63,963 bases of DNA from Chloroflexota bacterium (lineage in GTDB: Bacteria > Chloroflexota > Anaerolineae > UBA1429): assembly GCA_012729455.1 (NCBI GenBank), contig JAAYDC010000026.1, positions 1 to 63,963 of the forward strand, given 5' to 3'. Below the pieces are notes generated by a model that was not told where the DNA came from, did not search any database, and worked only from the letters and a program-made list of their open reading frames with translations. This document shows positions 7,115 to 36,538 of this stretch, piece by piece. The translations under genes were made by a program, and so were the position numbers. Positions within the stretch are counted from its first letter, which is position 1, and the number at the start of each line of letters is the position of its first letter.

Positions 7115-8758
7115 TCAGAATGGGTCGTCTTCGTGGAACGTAAGCACCGGATAGGCGCCTGGCGGGATGCCGCGCGCCGGATGCGGCTCGGGAGGCTCGT
7201 CGTTGCGGTAGCTGCGCCACTGGCTGGGTGCATCCGGGTCCGGCGCGCCGTGCGGGGTGAGGCGCGTGCGTACCTGGATCAGCACGGGCGTGTTGACAGA
7301 CGCCCCAGCAATGATCGCCTGGCCTTTGCTCAGGTTGGGCAGCTCGTCCAGCAGGTCGCGCCCCACCGAGCCGACACTTTCGGCGATGCGTGCCTGGTCG
7401 ACCGAGTTGACCACGCGCAGGATGCACTGTGTCATGCACTGCGAAAGCACGTCGCTATCCAGCTTGCCGGGGCGCTGGCTGATCAGCCCCACCCCCAGGC
7501 CAAACTTGCGCCCTTCGGAGAGGATCTGTTTGAGCACCGCAGAGGTGATGATGTCGTCGCTGGCAGGCGCATAGTTGTGCGCCTCTTCGATCAGCACAAA
7601 GACGGGGTAGGGCAGATAGTTCTCGGCCCCGCGCACCGTGCGGCCGCGCACCGTATCCATGCGCGCCTGGTTGAGGCGCCGCAGGATAGTGGCCACGATC
7701 ACGCGCTGCTCGCGCTCGGGGATCTCGTTGAGCTGCAGGATGGTGCACAACCCGGGGCGCACCAGCTCGCCCAGTTTGAGGTCCTGGTCGGCATCAAACA
7801 GCTTGTTTTCCGCAAGCGCTTCTACTCGCCAAAGCAACGCGCCGACGGTTGGGTCTGTAGTGGCCTCCGGGGTGTCATCGGCAGGCTTGGTGATCGCCTC
7901 GCGCAGGTGTTGAAAGGTCCAGCGCCCGCGGGCACGGGCACCGCTGCGCGAATCCTTGAAGGCGCGGTTGAGGTTATTGTGCATCTTTTCGGAGAGGTTG
8001 GGCATCAGATAGCGCAGGTCGCCGATTTCGAGCGACGACATGCGTACCTTGATATCCGCCGGCCTCAGGATCTGTACCTGGGGAGCGTAATCCGCGGCGG
8101 CAAACTGCGGCAGGCGCTGCAGGTCCTCGAGGGTGTCGTATTCGGCGTGCGGATCAATCACCAGCACCGCTGCACGGTTGTGCGGCATCATCAGCTCTTC
8201 GACTATCACCCCTGCCAGATAGCTCTTGCCGGCGCCGGTCGAGGCGATGATCGCCAGGTGGGTGCTGGTAAAGCCGCGCGCATCCAGCTGCAGCGGTACC
8301 CTTCCGCTCTCACGCGTCAGCAGCGACCCAATCTGCACCGCGCCGGTAGCCTCGGCGCTCAAGCGCGAGAGAAGGGCGGTGAGCTGTGCATCGGCCGCCA
8401 GATAGATGGGCGTGCCCGGCACGGGCAGGGCGTGCGGGTTCACAAAACCGAGCGCTTTGTCCAGATAACCCAGCAGGCTAACGCTCAGGCGATACAACCC
8501 GCTGGGGGGCGGATCAAGCCCCAGCAGGCCGGCCAGATGGTCGGGCGAGACGGCCGGGTCGGCCAGCAGGTTATCCGGCAGACTGCGCGCCAGTTCGCGC
8601 TTGCTGATGCGTCCCAGTACCATGCGCTCTTCGGCCTGATAGTAGACGAATTCGCCGTGCCTCAGGTGGTTGTGCGGGTCGCGCGCGATGAAGACATAGC
8701 TGTTGGCGGTTTCGCCCGGCCCCTGGGTGATGCCGACCGCTGCATGTAGCGCGCTCAC
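7115..8758 (-). CDS. herA: HerA-like hexameric DNA translocase/helicase
   Basis: 547 residues. The N-terminus (1-~60) reads as a HAS-barrel, followed by a RecA/FtsK-like ATPase: Walker A ASTGAGKSY at about residue 172-180, Walker B VLVIDPHAEYD at about 200, and a late FVLIEEAHNYAP motif typical of HerA. HerA forms a hexameric ring that stimulates the NurA nuclease and resects DNA ends together with Mre11-Rad50. Here it lies in one operon with exactly those partners: the HAS protein, nurA, sbcC and sbcD. ATGA overlap with the upstream gene indicates tight coupling. A DUF87-type ATPase of another role is possible, but the neighbourhood argues strongly for HerA. Confidence 0.9.
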   Translation of the reverse strand: MSALHAAVGITQGPGETANSYVFIARDPHNHLRHGEFVYYQAEERMVLGRISKRELARSLPDNLLADPAVSPDHLAGLLGLDPPPSGLYRLSVSLLGYLDKALGFVNPHALPVPGTPIYLAADAQLTALLSRLSAEATGAVQIGSLLTRESGRVPLQLDARGFTSTHLAIIASTGAGKSYLAGVIVEELMMPHNRAAVLVIDPHAEYDTLEDLQRLPQFAAADYAPQVQILRPADIKVRMSSLEIGDLRYLMPNLSEKMHNNLNRAFKDSRSGARARGRWTFQHLREAITKPADDTPEATTDPTVGALLWRVEALAENKLFDADQDLKLGELVRPGLCTILQLNEIPEREQRVIVATILRRLNQARMDTVRGRTVRGAENYLPYPVFVLIEEAHNYAPASDDIITSAVLKQILSEGRKFGLGVGLISQRPGKLDSDVLSQCMTQCILRVVNSVDQARIAESVGSVGRDLLDELPNLSKGQAIIAGASVNTPVLIQVRTRLTPHGAPDPDAPSQWRSYRNDEPPEPHPARGIPPGAYPVLTFHEDDPF

Positions 8759-9345
8759 AGGCGCGCCTCCAGCGGACGGATGCTGGTGCGCCAGGCAATA
8801 TCATCCGCCAGCAGCTGCAAGCTGGGGGCCTCATCGGGGTAGCGCTCTGCCAGCACAGCCAGCAGCCTCGTGAGCACCTGTAGCATCTGCGGCTGCGGAT
8901 TAGCCAGCAGCCCTGGAAGATAGGCGATGCGCAGTGAACCGCCCGCGGTATGAAAGGCATCGAACTCGGCCTCGCTGAGGGTGCTGACGACTGTGCCGAT
9001 GCTGGCTGCCAGGCTGGCGCAGCCCTGCTGGGCGCTGCCATCCTCGGCCAGGCTGCCGATGACCGTCAGCTCCACCAAAGTAGCGAGCTCGTCGAGGTAA
9101 TCAGGCGCAAAGACAGCCAGAGCGTCGGGCTGGGTGATGCGCGGCGAGCGGCTGCCGTAATCCGGGTTGTAGAGCTGCGTATCCGTGAGGATCGCCACCA
9201 GTGTGACGTCCTCCAGGCGCATGCCCACCAGCGTACCGAGGGCGTGGTCGGCCGGGCTGAATGCCTCAGCCGCTTCGCCGCGTCCCAGAATGCGGCAGGT
9301 GTAGAGGGTATGCGAGCGCGAACTGACGATCGTGCCGATCTGCAT
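8755..9345 (-). CDS. Small HAS-barrel-like protein of the HerA/NurA operon
   Basis: 196 residues. The first ~60 (MQIGTIVSSRSHTLYTCRIL onward) look like a small beta-barrel similar to the HerA N-terminal HAS-barrel; the remainder is helical with no motif I recognise. It sits between nurA (15-base gap) and herA (ATGA overlap), so a structural role in the HerA/NurA complex, such as clamp, adaptor or regulator, is reasonable inference. HerA itself already starts with a barrel, so this is a second one. No enzymatic residues are evident. Confidence 0.6.
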   Translation of the reverse strand: MQIGTIVSSRSHTLYTCRILGRGEAAEAFSPADHALGTLVGMRLEDVTLVAILTDTQLYNPDYGSRSPRITQPDALAVFAPDYLDELATLVELTVIGSLAEDGSAQQGCASLAASIGTVVSTLSEAEFDAFHTAGGSLRIAYLPGLLANPQPQMLQVLTRLLAVLAERYPDEAPSLQLLADDIAWRTSIRPLEARL

Positions 9346-9360
9346 GCGGGTTCCGTTCCT

Positions 9361-10545
9361 TTATTGTCGACGTTGTTTGGCAGCAGCCTTGGCGGCTAAC
9401 TGCAGCTCAAAGCCCTGCTCATGGAGTAAACGATCAAGCAGCCGCCAGAGGCGCAGGGCATCTGGCTGGGAAAGCACCGCCTGGGAATGCGCCGAGCTGA
9501 GCGCATAGGGGTAACCGCTCCCGACGATGCATTCGGCGCGCACGACGTCGGCCACCTCATCCGCCAAGCCGGCTGTCTGTACCCAGGCGGGCAACTCGAT
9601 ACGCGCAGGAGGATTATCGCTGGAGGTCTTTAAATACGCAAAATGGAGCTCGCGATAATAGTCGATCCCATCCGGCGGGTTTTGCGAGAGGCGGTCGTCG
9701 CGCGCTACGACCCACAAGTCACTGCGCATTCCCCATTCAAGCACACGATCCAGCAGTGCCGCATCGGGTACCTCAATCATGCCGGCGGACGTGTCCAGCA
9801 GGGAGAGCATGCGCGTCAGATCGCGGGCATAAGAGCGGTCGATAAACCCCACCAGGGGGACGCGTGTCTCCTTCGAACATGCAAGCATGGCCTGCACCGC
9901 TTGTACATAGCATGTGCGCAGGGTCGGGTGCAGCATGCCGGCGAATGAAAGCGTCAGTGAGCCATCCACCAGGACGAGGGCCATCCTGGACGTGCACGCC
10001 AGTTGCTGCATGACCTGACAGGCGCTGCGGCATTCGAGTTCATAGCGTGCCTGGTTGACGAGTGCCTCAGAGGCGCTCTCGGGATCATTGCCGTCCAGTC
10101 CGAGGTCGTCGGGGGTGAGCAGTTCAAGCCAACGCGGCGTCTCATAACTGCCGTCAGCCGTATGGCGGTTGATATAGGCAGCGGCCTGCACCACCCCCAG
10201 CGGCAGGGCGATGTCGCGACTGGGCATGATCTGTGAGCCATCGATGGCGGCCACGCTGCGCCCGGCAAGCATCTCCTGAGCCCAAGCAAGTGCGGCGGGC
10301 CGGTTGTGCCAAGGAGCGTCAAACGGGCGTGCCAGTGGCTGGCCGGGGAGCCGTTCCGGGGTGGGCAGCGCTCCGGGGCGCGCATGAGCCGCAAGGCGCG
10401 CACGAATGGTTTCGGCATCCAGCTCAGCCAGTTCTGCCAGGGCATCAGCGCCGGCAACGGCGCTTGCCCTGAAGCGCTGCATCCAGGCGAGCAGCTCTGG
10501 GCTGCGTTCGTTCAGGGCGTTGAGCAGGAGTTCGGAATCCAGCAT
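9361..10545 (-). CDS. nurA: NurA-like 5'-3' DNA nuclease
   Basis: 394 residues. The NurA core is recognisable from the metal-binding AAIDGSQIMPSR (about residue 100), a second acidic strand LVLVDGSLTLSF (about 195), DRSYARDL, and the C-terminal YPYALSSAHSQAVLS segment that contributes the conserved His. NurA is a manganese-dependent single- and double-strand DNA exonuclease with an endonuclease activity, RNase H-like fold, acting as a dimer on the HerA hexamer. Its stop is 15 bases before the HAS protein and its start shares one base with the sbcC stop (TGATG). Confidence 0.85.
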   Translation of the reverse strand: MLDSELLLNALNERSPELLAWMQRFRASAVAGADALAELAELDAETIRARLAAHARPGALPTPERLPGQPLARPFDAPWHNRPAALAWAQEMLAGRSVAAIDGSQIMPSRDIALPLGVVQAAAYINRHTADGSYETPRWLELLTPDDLGLDGNDPESASEALVNQARYELECRSACQVMQQLACTSRMALVLVDGSLTLSFAGMLHPTLRTCYVQAVQAMLACSKETRVPLVGFIDRSYARDLTRMLSLLDTSAGMIEVPDAALLDRVLEWGMRSDLWVVARDDRLSQNPPDGIDYYRELHFAYLKTSSDNPPARIELPAWVQTAGLADEVADVVRAECIVGSGYPYALSSAHSQAVLSQPDALRLWRLLDRLLHEQGFELQLAAKAAAKQRRQ

Positions 10546-13262
10546 CAGGCTTGCTCAACAGGGCGCGAGCCGCGCTCGTCGCGGATAATGTGCACGCGGT
10601 GGTGGGCATAGCGTTCAAAGGTGTCGTCGTGGCTGACAACCAGAATCTGCCCAAAGCCGCGGATCAGGGCCAGCCGCTCGGAAAGGTTTTCGCGGCGCTC
10701 GGCATCCAGATGGGCGGTCGGCTCGTCAAAGATCGCCAAGTCGATGCCCGAGGCGTTGCGCAAGAGTGCCAGGCGCAGGGCGAGCGCGGCAGCCATCTGC
10801 TCGCCGCCCGAAAGCTGCGGATAGGCGCGCGTTTCACCGCGCACCGACAGGCTCAGGCTATAGTCGGAATCCCACATCAGCTTGCCCGAGGTATCCGCCA
10901 TGATCTCGCGGTAGATTGCACTGGCTTCGTAAGCGATGCGCTCGGTCAGCCGCCGGGTGATCTGCGGACCGGCCTCCTTAAGCCAGCCGCGGATGCGCTC
11001 GCCACTCATGCGCGCCAGGTCGCTGCGTGCGATCTGCGCTTGCGCCTCGGCCAGCTTGTCGCGCGCGGTGACCAGCTCGCTCAGGCGCTTTTGGGCGATG
11101 CTAGCCTGAGCGTTGTGCAGCTCCAGTTGCGCCCGGGAGGCGGCCAACTCACTGGCGTACTGGGTCTGCTGGCGGCGCAGCTCGGCGTGGGCAGGAGCAT
11201 CATAAGCGGTTTGCCTGCCGGCAGCCTCGATTTGGGCACACTCGAGCTCTTTACTACGGTCGGCCGCTTCAGCCAGCTGGGTACGCGCTCTGGCTGCGCG
11301 CTCGTTATACTCACCGGCTACCTGGATATTGGCCAGATAGCGCTCGTGGTCAGGCTGGTTGGCGCGCAGTTCGCGCTGGTTGGTATCCAGCTGGTCTTCG
11401 AGCCCGGCATAGGCTGCCAGCTCGCTCTGCAGCTGGGTCTCCTCGGCGTCCAGCGCCTCCAGGCTAACCCGTACAGCCGCCAGTTCGCTGGCTACCTGCG
11501 GATGGCGCTCGGCAGCGCGTTGCAAGGTAGCTGCCCTGGTGCGCGGGTTGCCCAAAGCCTCGAGCTGCCGGCAGGTTGCATCGCGCAGTGCCGGCGCATC
11601 GCCAAGCGCTTGCAGGGCGGTACGCGCTTTCTCGACTTGTGCATGCGCATTGGCCTCGCCCTTAGTGGCTGCCTCGACGGCATCAGCGGCAGGCAGTTTA
11701 CGCAAGCTGGCATAGAGCTTGTCGATCTCGCGCTGCCCGCTTTGCACCGCGCCGCGCACGTCGGTAGCATGGGCGCTCGCTTTGGCGAGCTCCTGCTGCA
11801 GTTGCTCGAGTTGCACGGTGTTGAGCTCCAGTAGCTCATGACGATGCTCGGGCGTCAGCTCAGCCATACACACCGGACAGGTGGCGAGGTCACTTTGGCA
11901 CAGCTGCTGGTTAGCGTGCTCAATGCGTTCTATCTCGGTTTTAGCTCTGGCCATGGCGTCCAGGGTGGCGCGTTCGTCGCTGCGTGCAGCCTCGAGGGCA
12001 TCGCTGCGGAGCTTGAGGCTAGCCTCCAGGCTGAGGGACTCTTTATGGCTTGAACGGGTGCGCTCAAGCTCTTGCCGGGCACGCTCAAGCCCGCGCTGGG
12101 CGTCGGCCAGTGCGCGTTGGGCTTGCTCAAAATGGCTGACGGCACTGTTTTGCTGTGCCAGATGCAGCTCCAGACGCGACTGTTCGGCAACCTCTGGTTC
12201 AAGGGCACGATATTCGGCTTCGGCTCGCGCGGTGGATTGCTGTTCGCGTTCAAGCTGAGAGACCTGGCCGCTCAGTTCGGCGCGCTGGCTCGCCAGTTTG
12301 GCGGCCGACTGGGTGAGCTTGTCGCGTGCCACGCGTGCATTTTGCAGCTCACGGCCAGCTTCTTCGGCGCGCTGATAAGCCAGATGCCCCGGCTCGCTGG
12401 CTACACAGGTACTGCGGGCGCGCTCAGCGGATTGCGCGGCTTCGGCAGCGGTCTCGGCGCGCTGCTGGGCCAGGTCGTGTGTGCGTCGGGCGATCGTGAC
12501 GGCCTGGTTGGCACGTTCCAGCGCCTCGGAGGCTAGTTCATAGCCATGTATGCGCTGTTCTAGCTCCACAAGAGCCCCGGAGAGCTCATCCGTCCGCGCC
12601 GCCGCCTGTGCTGCGGCTGCCTGATGCGCAGCCAGGTCGGCCTCCAATCGGGGCTGCTCTTCCAGTTGGCCCTCAAGCCTTGCGGCGATGCTGCGTTCAT
12701 TCGCCAGGCGCTGCTCGATATGGCGCACCGTTTCGCGCAGTTTGTCGGCACTTACCGCATAGTCGCTCACCTGCAGAAGCGGGCCAAAGAGGCTGCGGCG
12801 CTCTGCCGGGCGTGCCAGAAAGGGCGCCGTCATGGTGCCCTGCGGTACCCCGATGGTGTTTTCAAAGAGCGATGCCAGGTCTGCGCCGGAATCCAGGCGC
12901 AGGTGGCGCCGCATCCAGCCCTGTACGCCGGAGACACCCTCCGCCACCACCTCGTTAAGTTCGCAATCGCGCACGCGATACTGGGTGGTGGTGCTTGCGG
13001 TAAAACGCCGTTCGGCCTCGTATTGGCGTTCATCCAGTGCCGAGATAAAGCGCACCAGGGCGCGCCCGGATTTACTGCCCTCGCGCAACAGGCTTCCGGC
13101 GGTACCACTGGTATGGTTAAAGAGCACAAAACCAATCGCCTCGAGGATTGAGCTCTTGCCAGCACCGTTGCGCCCCAAGATGGCGTTGACCCCTGGCGCA
13201 AACATGATCTCGGCATCAACATAGCTCTTGAAATCCTGTAGCCTGACCGAGTGGATCAGCAT
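10545..13262 (-). CDS. sbcC: SbcC/Rad50 SMC-like ATPase
   Basis: 905 residues. N-terminal Walker A GRNGAGKSSILEA (about residue 34), two long Ala/Gln/Glu/Arg-rich coiled-coil arms, and between them the zinc hook CPVC near residue 461. The C-terminal half has the ABC signature LSGGEQMAAALALR (about 816) and Walker B LAIFDEPTAHLD (about 839). It tethers and processes DNA ends with SbcD/Mre11, overlapping sbcD by 7 bases. The length is near that of archaeal Rad50 (~880-900), shorter than E. coli SbcC (1048). Together with herA and nurA it completes an archaeal-type end-resection set. Confidence 0.93.
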   Translation of the reverse strand: MLIHSVRLQDFKSYVDAEIMFAPGVNAILGRNGAGKSSILEAIGFVLFNHTSGTAGSLLREGSKSGRALVRFISALDERQYEAERRFTASTTTQYRVRDCELNEVVAEGVSGVQGWMRRHLRLDSGADLASLFENTIGVPQGTMTAPFLARPAERRSLFGPLLQVSDYAVSADKLRETVRHIEQRLANERSIAARLEGQLEEQPRLEADLAAHQAAAAQAAARTDELSGALVELEQRIHGYELASEALERANQAVTIARRTHDLAQQRAETAAEAAQSAERARSTCVASEPGHLAYQRAEEAGRELQNARVARDKLTQSAAKLASQRAELSGQVSQLEREQQSTARAEAEYRALEPEVAEQSRLELHLAQQNSAVSHFEQAQRALADAQRGLERARQELERTRSSHKESLSLEASLKLRSDALEAARSDERATLDAMARAKTEIERIEHANQQLCQSDLATCPVCMAELTPEHRHELLELNTVQLEQLQQELAKASAHATDVRGAVQSGQREIDKLYASLRKLPAADAVEAATKGEANAHAQVEKARTALQALGDAPALRDATCRQLEALGNPRTRAATLQRAAERHPQVASELAAVRVSLEALDAEETQLQSELAAYAGLEDQLDTNQRELRANQPDHERYLANIQVAGEYNERAARARTQLAEAADRSKELECAQIEAAGRQTAYDAPAHAELRRQQTQYASELAASRAQLELHNAQASIAQKRLSELVTARDKLAEAQAQIARSDLARMSGERIRGWLKEAGPQITRRLTERIAYEASAIYREIMADTSGKLMWDSDYSLSLSVRGETRAYPQLSGGEQMAAALALRLALLRNASGIDLAIFDEPTAHLDAERRENLSERLALIRGFGQILVVSHDDTFERYAHHRVHIIRDERGSRPVEQA

Positions 13263-14542
13263 GCGTCCGCCTCCGCGGGGTGGGCGGCCAAAAAGGCTTC
13301 CAGCTCATCCACGATCTCGGCTGACGGGCGGCCCGCCAGGGCCCTCTCCTTCATACGCGCCGCCAGAGCAGCCCAGGCATCCGCCTCCTCGACCAGCTGC
13401 ACGTCGCGGCTGATCAGCTCGGTCAGTACATGCCGTTCAAGTTCGCTGCGTGTCAGGTCGTCGGGCAGGGCAACTTCGCCGGCCTCGGCCGAGGCGCGAT
13501 TGGTGATGCGCACCACCAGGGCGCGAAAGCGCTCGCGGATGTGGCTTTGCAGTTCGGCCTCATCCACCTGGGATGGGTCGAACTGCAGCACGCCCGTCAG
13601 CGTCACCTCTACGACCGGAGGGCGCTGCCTGTTATCGAGGCGCTCGGCCAGCAGCTGGGCATCGATCGCATCGAGCAGCTCCTGCGCTGAATAGATCGTA
13701 TCCATGCGCACCAGCACGCGCACATAAGGCCGGCGCGGCACAACCACCTGCTCGACTCGCTGCACTGGCGGTTCGCCCGGCTCTACAGAAACCTGCAGCA
13801 GGCCGCGCTGGGGCCAGGCGGTTTCGTCCGAGCTGACCGTCTCGAGCGAGCCGGGATTGTAGAGCCAGTCATCCTGGATAAAGGGCTTGTGAAAGTGCCC
13901 CAGGGCGACATAATCCGTCAGCTCGCGGAAAGGGTTGAGCGCGCTACGGGTGATGCTGAGGGCATGCGCATCCATCATGCCCTCCAGGCCGGTGTGCAGC
14001 ATCAGGATAGTATAGGGCGCATGCGGCAGGGAGCGCAGATCGCGCAGATAGATCTCGAGCATGCGCGCCGTGCTGGCGCCATAGTAGCGCATCCCCACCA
14101 CCCTGGCGCCGCAGTGCAGGTCGATATAAGTGCCGCGGCGGATAGCGCCATCCCACGGCAGCACGACTTTAAAGCCATCTGCACCGGTCTGCGCATCCAG
14201 CAGGATCAGGCTGCCGTGAGCTGAAAGGTAATCCAGCCAGCTCATCTCGTCGGCATAGGTGGGGTTGTCGTGGTTGCCGATCACCGCCAGCAGGGGGATG
14301 CCAGCCGCGCTCAGCGGCTTGAGCAGCTCTGTCACCTGATGCAGCAGCTGCGGACTGATGTTGTGCTTGTGAAACAGGTCGCCGGCTACCAGCACAAAGT
14401 CGACGCGCTGGTTGATGGCGCGCTCTACGGCAAAGTGCAGCATCAGCGCCATATCGTTGGCGCGTTGTTCGCTGCCAAACTGCTGGTAGCCGAGATGCAG
14501 ATCAGCCAAGTGTAGAAAGCGAAAGGCCTTGAGGGGTGGCAT
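13256..14542 (-). CDS. sbcD: SbcD/Mre11 DNA exonuclease
   Basis: 428 residues. Metallophosphoesterase motifs are in order: HLADLHLGY (residue ~10), LVAGDLFHKH (~50), GNHDNP (~92), HTGLEG (~185) and GHFHKP (~215). These coordinate two manganese ions for 3'-5' exonuclease and endonuclease action at DNA ends. The C-terminal ~170 residues form the capping and Rad50-binding region. ATG 14542 leaves a 14-base gap after the upstream membrane regulator; the downstream overlap with sbcC is standard. Confidence 0.93.
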   Translation of the reverse strand: MPPLKAFRFLHLADLHLGYQQFGSEQRANDMALMLHFAVERAINQRVDFVLVAGDLFHKHNISPQLLHQVTELLKPLSAAGIPLLAVIGNHDNPTYADEMSWLDYLSAHGSLILLDAQTGADGFKVVLPWDGAIRRGTYIDLHCGARVVGMRYYGASTARMLEIYLRDLRSLPHAPYTILMLHTGLEGMMDAHALSITRSALNPFRELTDYVALGHFHKPFIQDDWLYNPGSLETVSSDETAWPQRGLLQVSVEPGEPPVQRVEQVVVPRRPYVRVLVRMDTIYSAQELLDAIDAQLLAERLDNRQRPPVVEVTLTGVLQFDPSQVDEAELQSHIRERFRALVVRITNRASAEAGEVALPDDLTRSELERHVLTELISRDVQLVEEADAWAALAARMKERALAGRPSAEIVDELEAFLAAHPAEADAC

Positions 14543-14556
14543 GTGGTTCGTCCGTA

Positions 14557-16479
14557 TCAGTCTCTATGCTCGCCTTCGAGGGCGTTGCGTTCCATCTGCA
14601 GCAGCGTCTCGGCTACCTGGTCAATGGCAATGCGCTGCTTGCGGTAAAAGTCGCTCTCGCTCATCGCCAGGCGCTGCGCTATGTGGCGGATGCGCTGACC
14701 CTGGATAAAGCGCAGTTCGAGGATGTTGTAGAGCATCCACTCGTTCGAGGTCATGCTGCGCTGGCCATCCGGGCGCAGGCGTTCGATCGCTTCCTGCAGG
14801 ATAGCGCGGATTGCCCGGGTGGGAATGTTACCGAACTCGCTCAGGCGTGCGCGCACGATCTCCATGCTCGAAAGCGGGCTGTGCGAAAGTTTTGGGCCGC
14901 CCCACAGCTGCACCAGGGCATCCTTGACGCTTTGGCCAAAGCCGGCATCGACGGTGCTGCTTGTCAGGACTTGACCATCGGAGCTGCTGTAAGCCGTGAT
15001 CGAACGCCAACCCTGCACTAGGTTGAGCTCTGCCTCCAGGCTGCGCAGCACGCCAAAGATCTGTTCCTGCAGGGCTTTATCCTCCAACGCCAGCTCGGTG
15101 CGGCGCACCAGCGAATAGGCGCTATCCAGCTGTTCGGGCTCAAAGTGGGCCTGCGGTCCGTCGGCACGGATCGCCAGCAGCCCCAGCTCGACGCGGCTCT
15201 CGCTGGACTGCAGCGGTAGCACCCAATAGCCATCCGCAGCGCGAAAATCGCTGTTTTCTACCAGCCCCTCGGGACGGCTGGAACACAGCTCGTTCACCAG
15301 GTGGGGCAGGTCGAGACGATCCAGGAACTGGGCGGCATGGGAGCGCTGTCCGCTATAAACACGCAGCTGCAGCTCGCTATCAGTGATGGTGGCGATAAAG
15401 CCATCCGGCACGCGCAACAGGTCGCACAGCGAGATCAACGAGTTTTCTAAAAGCTGCGAAAGGTCTGTGCTGGTAAGCAGCCGGCGTTCCATGGTCTGGA
15501 TCAACTCAATCTCATTCCGGTCGCGGTAATAGATCAGCCGGTCAAAGGCTGGCTTGAACAGGTTGGCCAACAGCTGAAAGGACACAATGGCAGCTGCCAC
15601 TGCCACGATCAGCACCATCTCGCGCGGCAGCCCCAGGATGATGTCGACGCGCGGCACCACCAGCATGATCACGATCACAAGAATCGCCACCACCGGCCCG
15701 CGCAGCAGAAAGTGCAACATGTCGTGCTTGATGACGCGGTCGGGCGAGAGTACCCCCTGATACGCCACAATGTAGCCGATCAGCACCGTTACCGCGGCAG
15801 TGCCGAGGTTGCCCAGGAGCGCCAGGAATTCAATGCTCGTGGCACTAAATGAATGCGCTGTGGTCGGGAACAAGAGATACGGAAAGACCCCCAGGCTGGG
15901 CACAGCAAAGGCCAGTAACAGGTACGACATGCGCCGGCGCGAGGTGGTGGTGACACAGCGCATGCGTGCATAAGCAATGTGCAACCAGGCCATCACCAGC
16001 ACTGAGATGTAATAGAGCGCAAAGAGCACGAAATAGCGCCCCGCTACCAGGTGGTAGAATCCGTTGGTTTGGGTCGCCCCGTTCACCAGCCAGTCTGTCG
16101 TCAGCGTTACCAGTATCGTAAGAGTACCGATAGCATAGCCCAGCCATACCAGGGCGTGCCGCCAGCGCTGGGTATCGCCGGTGGTGCGCAGCACCGCCAC
16201 GCCAAAGTGCATATAGGCGGCTGGGATAAAGCTGATCCCTATCCACTGAAAGCGCAGCCAAGTATAGGCGCTCTCTACTGAAGAGACCTCCGCCAGGCTG
16301 ACATCTGCTAGATAGATCATGCTGACAAAGGTGATCAGTGCGCAGTAGGCGCGCGCGACCGGACTGGAAGGGTTGTGCGCGGCGATATAAATGAGTAATG
16401 AAAAGCCAATGATGACGTTGGCCGAGGAGAGGATCAGGTTGCCAAAGCTAAGCACCATCGGGAGCGTGATTGTCTGCAT
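14557..16479 (-). CDS. Membrane-integrated regulator: 7TM sensor, GAF-like domain, C-terminal HTH
   Basis: 640 residues. The first ~250 form about seven hydrophobic helices like the N-terminal 7TM sensor of some histidine kinases, followed by two further membrane segments (GPVVAILVIVIMLVVPRVDI and MVLIVAVAAAIVSFQLLANL). A GAF-like region spans roughly 330-470. There is no kinase or cyclase catalytic domain. The C-terminal ~75 residues contain a helix-turn-helix-like stretch, RIRHIAQRLAMSESDFYRKQ, so the protein may be a membrane-tethered DNA-binding one-component regulator. It lies between cdsA (17-base gap) and sbcD (14-base gap) in the same orientation. Ligand and targets are unknown. The HTH call is by eye. 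Confidence 0.65.
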   Translation of the reverse strand: MQTITLPMVLSFGNLILSSANVIIGFSLLIYIAAHNPSSPVARAYCALITFVSMIYLADVSLAEVSSVESAYTWLRFQWIGISFIPAAYMHFGVAVLRTTGDTQRWRHALVWLGYAIGTLTILVTLTTDWLVNGATQTNGFYHLVAGRYFVLFALYYISVLVMAWLHIAYARMRCVTTTSRRRMSYLLLAFAVPSLGVFPYLLFPTTAHSFSATSIEFLALLGNLGTAAVTVLIGYIVAYQGVLSPDRVIKHDMLHFLLRGPVVAILVIVIMLVVPRVDIILGLPREMVLIVAVAAAIVSFQLLANLFKPAFDRLIYYRDRNEIELIQTMERRLLTSTDLSQLLENSLISLCDLLRVPDGFIATITDSELQLRVYSGQRSHAAQFLDRLDLPHLVNELCSSRPEGLVENSDFRAADGYWVLPLQSSESRVELGLLAIRADGPQAHFEPEQLDSAYSLVRRTELALEDKALQEQIFGVLRSLEAELNLVQGWRSITAYSSSDGQVLTSSTVDAGFGQSVKDALVQLWGGPKLSHSPLSSMEIVRARLSEFGNIPTRAIRAILQEAIERLRPDGQRSMTSNEWMLYNILELRFIQGQRIRHIAQRLAMSESDFYRKQRIAIDQVAETLLQMERNALEGEHRD

Positions 16480-36460: not shown

Positions 36461-36531
36461 TGAGGGATCGTCCAATGGTAGGACACCTGACTCTGGATCA
36501 GGCGATCGGGGTTCGAATCCCTGTCCCTCAG
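36461..36531 (+). tRNA. tRNA-Gln (CTG anticodon)
   Basis: Acceptor arms TGAGGGA/TCCCTCA (36461-36467, 36524-36530) with U1-A72 as usual for tRNA-Gln, discriminator G 36531. Anticodon stem CCTGA/TCAGG around loop CTCTGGA gives anticodon CTG (36493-36495). T-loop TTCGAAT is standard. CCA is not encoded. Confidence 0.93.
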
Positions 36532-36538
36532 CTCACAT

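Follow-up and report, generated by a model that had tools for sequence, protein, structure and literature searches.

A predicted HAS-barrel-like protein without an ATPase motif, encoded within a five-gene mre11-rad50-nurA-SM-herA operon of Chloroflexota

What is a complete set of mre11, rad50, nurA and herA genes doing in a single bacterial operon, and what is the product of the additional gene found among them? A linked herA-mre11-rad50-nurA operon is reportedly present in thermophilic archaea (Constantinesco 2002, 2004). The operon considered here lies instead in a 63,963-nucleotide stretch of DNA, hereafter the window, from a Chloroflexota bacterium (GenBank assembly GCA_012729455.1, contig JAAYDC010000026.1). 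A preliminary description, made from the letters of the window, had placed five overlapping or nearly touching ORFs in one operon, and this is indeed the case: mre11-rad50-nurA-SM-herA runs from 14542 to 7115 on the minus strand, with neighbouring ORFs either overlapping or no more than 15 bp apart.

The first gene of the cassette encodes an Mre11-type nuclease (13256..14542, 428 amino acids) and is followed, all on the minus strand, by genes for a Rad50 ATPase with a CPVC zinc hook (10545..13262, 905 amino acids), the nuclease NurA (9361..10545, 394 amino acids), SM (8755..9345, 196 amino acids) and the hexameric translocase HerA (7115..8758, 547 amino acids). SM is our label for the ~196 amino acid ORF between nurA and herA. 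mre11 and rad50 overlap by 7 bp, rad50 and nurA by 1 bp and SM and herA by 4 bp, whilst a 15-bp gap separates nurA from SM, which has an AAGGA upstream. The five-gene order recurs in many genomes and is therefore not a matter of chance. A co-directional 7TM-sensor gene (14557..16479, minus strand; HisKA_7TM, E 3.5e-11) ends 15 bp before mre11 and probably shares a transcript with the cassette; it is outside the conserved cassette, and is found upstream of it in one relative only (locus L223). A search for RNA folds in the segment that runs from the end of herA into the following gene found nothing.

The identity of the four enzymes is as originally named, with Pfam and NCBIfam agreeing and none of the four falling in an unrelated family. 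Mre11 scores 57.8 bits against PF00149 (Metallophos; cut-off 21.5, E 2.6e-15) and has the calcineurin-like phosphoesterase motifs. Rad50 scores 87.7 bits against PF02463 (SMC_N; cut-off 40, E 1e-24) and has ABC ATPase halves, a coiled coil and a CxxC zinc hook, CPVC in this sequence, for which the Rad50_zn_hook score of 20.7 bits is slightly below the cut-off of 24.3. NurA (PF09376, 114 bits, cut-off 21, E 9.7e-33) has its domain complete with D-E-D residues, and HerA (PF01935/DUF87, 119.5 bits, cut-off 23.2, E 2.9e-34) its ATPase core. The catalytic residues of all four are intact and near-invariant across 19 complete cassettes: the DxH, GDxF, GNHD and GHxH residues of Mre11, the Walker A, LSGGE signature and Walker B of Rad50, D102, E171 and D194 of NurA (catalytic in archaeal NurA) and, within ASTGAGKS and LIEEAH of HerA, K178, E391 and E392 (Walker A and B).

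Profile scores place these enzymes nearer to archaeal than to bacterial models. Mre11 reaches 102 bits with Mre11_Pyroc versus 64.5 with sbcD, Rad50 222 bits with the archaeal PRK03918 versus 66 with sbcC, and HerA 184 and 153 bits with archaeal HerA models versus 92 with antiphage HerA. SbcC and SbcD cut-offs are not reached (TIGR00618, 65.9 versus 478.5 bits; TIGR00619, 64.5 versus 77.65 bits), nor are those of antiphage HerA (NF042943 and NF042944, 85 and 92 bits versus 800 and 850), and the partner of HerA is NurA, not Sir2 or DUF4297. Among solved structures, Mre11 is best matched by Pyrococcus Mre11, ahead of T. maritima SbcD, Rad50 by archaeal Rad50, and HerA by those of T. kodakarensis (9x1l) and S. 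solfataricus (4d2i); a phmmer search of solved-structure sequences with NurA gave no match.

SM has no match in Pfam (even at E<10), NCBIfam or PADLOC, and its alignment found nothing meaningful among solved-structure sequences. It is a conserved gene, 44 members of which align, and its AlphaFold model (mean pLDDT 89.7) has a HAS-barrel-like fold. Foldseek ranks HerA chains first among matches of the model (E 2e-6). In VIA-align the model pairs with HerA N-termini at Z 14.2 (109 residues, 3.0 A), with D. radiodurans HerA at Z 11.3 and then with F1-ATPase N-terminal barrels at ~9.6; an independent model of an SM from a divergent lineage (see below) had the same outcome (Z 11.0). Since these fold matches are led by HerA and the SM sequence has no Walker motif, SM is, on its predicted structure, a stand-alone, ATPase-less HAS-barrel-like protein; HerA of the same operon retains an N-terminal HAS-type domain of its own. 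Profile-profile comparison gives little support for sequence homology of SM to the HerA N-terminus (E 0.14 to 1.6e-4, each from a single comparison), and we therefore claim a relation of fold only. Of eight SM relatives, six match PF09378 (HAS-barrel) below the gathering score (E 0.0045-0.21), more than for any other Pfam family at this level, and window SM gives no match. Given the weak sequence relation and the unreached cut-off, we do not claim PF09378 membership for SM, and the name 'HAS' given to this ORF in the preliminary description holds as an assignment of fold. Seven of the 14 near-invariant residues of SM (T56, P61, G64, P68, R69, P81 and E86) fall within 56-86, a loop and helix between barrel strands and a lower-confidence part of the model. 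In T. kodakarensis HerA, alpha1 and the preceding loop bind NurA (PMC12977600); by topology SM 56-86 matches this element, which together with the near-invariant residues suggests a putative binding element.

How widespread is the arrangement? Among 301 sampled Chloroflexota genomes, NurA was found in 187, window-type SM in 58 and window-type (A-type) HerA in 57. Both SM and A-type HerA are present in 56 of the 59 genomes with either, the remaining three having partial matches or matches at contig ends, and in 53 of those 56 the gene immediately upstream of herA, in the same orientation, is SM. The complete order was read in 15 Chloroflexota loci. Scattering of the genes, which would weaken the idea of a linked set, is seen in part: some families have SM-herA and mre11-rad50-nurA on separate contigs, with SM and herA remaining together. 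Flanking genes vary between families, and in several members of the window's own family a conserved GHMP-kinase gene adjoins the cassette. Two members of that family differ in content: in one, 99% complete (G305), neither A-type HerA nor a full Rad50 is present, which looks like loss, and another (G314) has Rad50 and no HerA match. Loss of herA was ruled out in a further genome (G193), where the gene was found 9 kb away, past an inserted RAMP- and HEPN-encoding cluster that lies between SM and herA (locus L062, 656-8650) and may be an insertion of type III CRISPR or related kind.

The phylum also contains a second and divergent type of HerA (B-type), with ~24% identity to window HerA; here too an ORF homologous to SM (profile-profile E 3e-10) lies between nurA and herA. 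Dehalococcoidia loci fetched by this ORF alone read nurA-SM-herA in 52 cases out of 80 and SM-herA in 19 more. In three genomes of the same class as the window genome (L087, L094 and L095) a divergent nurA-SM-herA is followed by rad50 or mre11, and linkage to Mre11-Rad50 therefore occurs in both HerA lineages. A contig scan reached almost only Chloroflexota (Dehalococcoidia and other Chloroflexi), one record being identical to the SM of a sampled genome, which places the sampled genomes in this phylum. Two loci labelled Deltaproteobacteria (L124 and L170) carry a Dehalococcoidia-type SM gene (68-70% identity), reflecting either mislabelled MAGs or transfer.

Outside the phylum, a search of 72,556 plasmids with window NurA gave four matches only, all haloarchaeal (CP002989.1, NZ_CP084885.1, NZ_CP119991.1 and NZ_CP099995.1); a search of plasmids with haloarchaeal SM matched the same four, and all carry mre11-rad50-nurA-SM-herA. 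In the three plasmids compared, HerA is 39-41% identical to that of the window over 520-560 residues and SM is matched at profile E 1e-40 to 1e-46. In haloarchaea, nurA and herA have been called absent or 'not apparent' (PMC7776575, PMC12977600), and the ancestral nurA has been inferred to be lost (PMC7599335); the plasmid copies therefore look acquired.

The linkage of the four genes had been described as a hallmark of archaea, and the linkage itself is real; the gene set is, however, widespread in Chloroflexota and its order differs from that of the hyperthermophile operon. Could that operon, herA-mre11-rad50-nurA, have been imported recently? Wherever an archaeal and a bacterial model are both available, the four enzymes score higher with the archaeal one, as such an import would lead one to expect, but the different order and extra gene are at odds with it. 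In the HerA tree, moreover, A-type Chloroflexota form one group (90/76) to which the four plasmid HerA are sister (plasmid clade 98/100); the B-type lineage falls outside this grouping, and S. solfataricus HerA far outside it at the end of a very long branch. Members of the window's family have HerA 59-65% identical, with gene order the same wherever contigs permit, and the GC3 of the cassette (0.70-0.81) is within the host range (0.753 +/- 0.048 for 20 neighbours), which disposes of a recent foreign origin by composition. Family-wide presence and host-like composition thus make a recent archaeal import very improbable indeed, and the operon is best regarded as long-established in its host family. 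The distance matrices of the five genes are correlated (r 0.83-0.94, values reached in 0 of 1000 permutations); common descent is enough to give such a correlation, which therefore shows that the genes were inherited together but not that their products interact.

With regard to function, the only SbcC/Rad50 match in the genome is the Rad50 of the operon (E<=0.001, TIGR00618), NurA is present in single copy and B-type HerA was not found. RecBCD or AddAB had been proposed as something to look for, and an AddA- and AddB-like pair is present on another contig of the same genome (C20), so the operon does not replace AddAB. The operon is thus best read as the genome's own Mre11-Rad50 and HerA-NurA machinery, at work alongside AddAB. 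The earlier suggestion of archaeal-type end resection stands insofar as archaeal profiles outscore bacterial ones and end processing is likely, but not as a replacement for AddAB.

With modest confidence, we favour a DNA-end processing machine in which SM acts as an adaptor at the HerA-NurA interface; the biochemical pathway is inferred from the named enzyme families, and the adaptor role is likewise inferred. Mre11-Rad50 would bind and trim a broken end, the HerA hexamer would thread the duplex and drive NurA, and NurA would degrade the duplex such that recombination becomes possible. SM would most likely bind where the HAS ring of HerA meets NurA, serving as a dedicated third subunit or adaptor, and may tune the docking of NurA or link the motor to Mre11-Rad50. 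Consistent with this are the overlapping genes, near-invariant active sites, co-occurrence and adjacency of SM and HerA, the HAS fold, the clustering of near-invariant SM residues in 56-86, the B-type SM ORF in the same place, the presence of only one Rad50/SbcC and one NurA, the correlated distances and a reported Mre11-HerA interaction in Sulfolobus (PMC2288612). Against it, resection may not depend on the operon, since AddAB is present; HerA-NurA of T. kodakarensis cleaved both DNA strands, and the authors of that study doubt a role in resection (PMC12977600); SM and HerA N-termini are alike in fold, their likeness in sequence being unconvincing; and in some families SM-herA is apart from mre11-rad50-nurA.

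That last separation bears on a different role for SM. Where the operon splits, SM stays with HerA and not with NurA, and this, like the gene overlap of SM and HerA in the window and the HAS fold without a motor, would suit a co-translated assembly factor or an inhibitor that lies outside the working enzyme and keeps the HAS/NurA interface occupied until hexamers of HerA have loaded onto DNA. Nothing counts directly against such a factor, the data fitting adaptor and inhibitor alike, and we consider it unlikely. Our preferred reading, SM as an adaptor, can be extended tentatively: it is possible that SM of Chloroflexota and haloarchaeal plasmids forms or completes a collar joining the HerA ring to NurA and couples it to Mre11-Rad50, giving three-component HerA-NurA machines, and that the five-gene cassette has moved as a single unit between bacteria and plasmids of haloarchaea.

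The preliminary description had also raised a role in defence. The cassette would then be primarily a mobile anti-invader system, Mre11-Rad50 sensing free or foreign ends, HerA-NurA destroying the duplex and SM providing a specificity or adaptor factor. The five genes are found in identical order on four haloarchaeal plasmids, flanks vary between Chloroflexota families, other bacterial HerA-nuclease pairs are antiphage and antiviral action of HerA-NurA has been suggested (PMC12977600). In addition, SngC- and SngB-like (Shango) genes adjoin two plasmid cassettes, directly upstream of mre11 (L203, 10634-15001; L204, 1-4104): in DL31 they match SngC at E 9e-270 and SngB at E 5e-59, and the annotation of the Natrinema plasmid shows the same neighbours. 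Against this, nearly all members of the window's family keep the cassette, several with the conserved GHMP-kinase neighbour; its composition is host-like; no Rad50/SbcC other than its own was found in the genome; antiphage HerA models are far below cut-off; and phage and viral collections gave no match. The Shango genes beside the two archaeal cassettes are the only defence context found, and no defence genes adjoin the window operon except for a Cas3c-like fragment ~5 kb away at the contig end. Defence as its primary role seems improbable. The fragment itself (98-1971) consists of two overlapping ORFs matching consecutive parts of one PADLOC Cas3c profile (WYL, then HD), cut by the contig end; it is a putative type I-C-like CRISPR locus, with either a natural split or a frameshift.

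Comparison with known systems underlines what is distinctive about the operon. The archaeal operon links the same four families, and by profile score Mre11, Rad50 and HerA of the window are of archaeal type, but it has four genes in another order and no fifth gene, whereas the window-type operon is found among bacteria of one phylum and on plasmids of haloarchaea, with AddAB also present in the window genome. Deinococcus/Thermus HerA-NurA likewise pairs a bacterial HerA hexamer with NurA, the HAS barrel being the NurA-binding face (PMC9960219), but no fifth gene is reported there, and HerA of the window resembles archaeal HerA more closely; Mre11-Rad50 is said to be missing from D. radiodurans (PMC12977600). 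Antiphage HerA systems (Sir2-HerA and DUF4297-HerA) also combine a HerA ring bearing a HAS barrel with a partner nuclease, and their HerA N-termini are top fold matches of SM, but their effectors differ from the NurA and Mre11-Rad50 of the window. SbcCD has the same enzyme architecture as the window Mre11-Rad50, which falls below SbcC/SbcD cut-offs and sits with HerA-NurA. The haloarchaeal cassettes share all five genes and their order (HerA ~40% identical), differing in being plasmid-borne and, in two cases, in adjoining Shango-like genes.

The open literature searched reports neither a third HerA-NurA component nor an mre11-rad50-nurA-SM-herA operon in Chloroflexota, an earlier mention in Iyer 2004 being possible. 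How HerA-NurA and Mre11-Rad50 cooperate, and whether HerA-NurA carries out resection or plain DNA destruction, is disputed (PMC12977600), and SM, built on the NurA-docking domain of HerA, is a concrete candidate for a missing regulator or coupler. The conserved motorless HAS protein and the five-gene cassette shared with haloarchaeal plasmids were unexpected: a complete linked set is found in bacteria alongside AddAB, and haloarchaea, a group described as lacking NurA and HerA, carry such a set on plasmids. Elsewhere in the window, the segment 36001-38000 has a G+C content of 0.485 versus ~0.61 and lies beside tRNA-Gln (36461-36532), making it a candidate integrated element.
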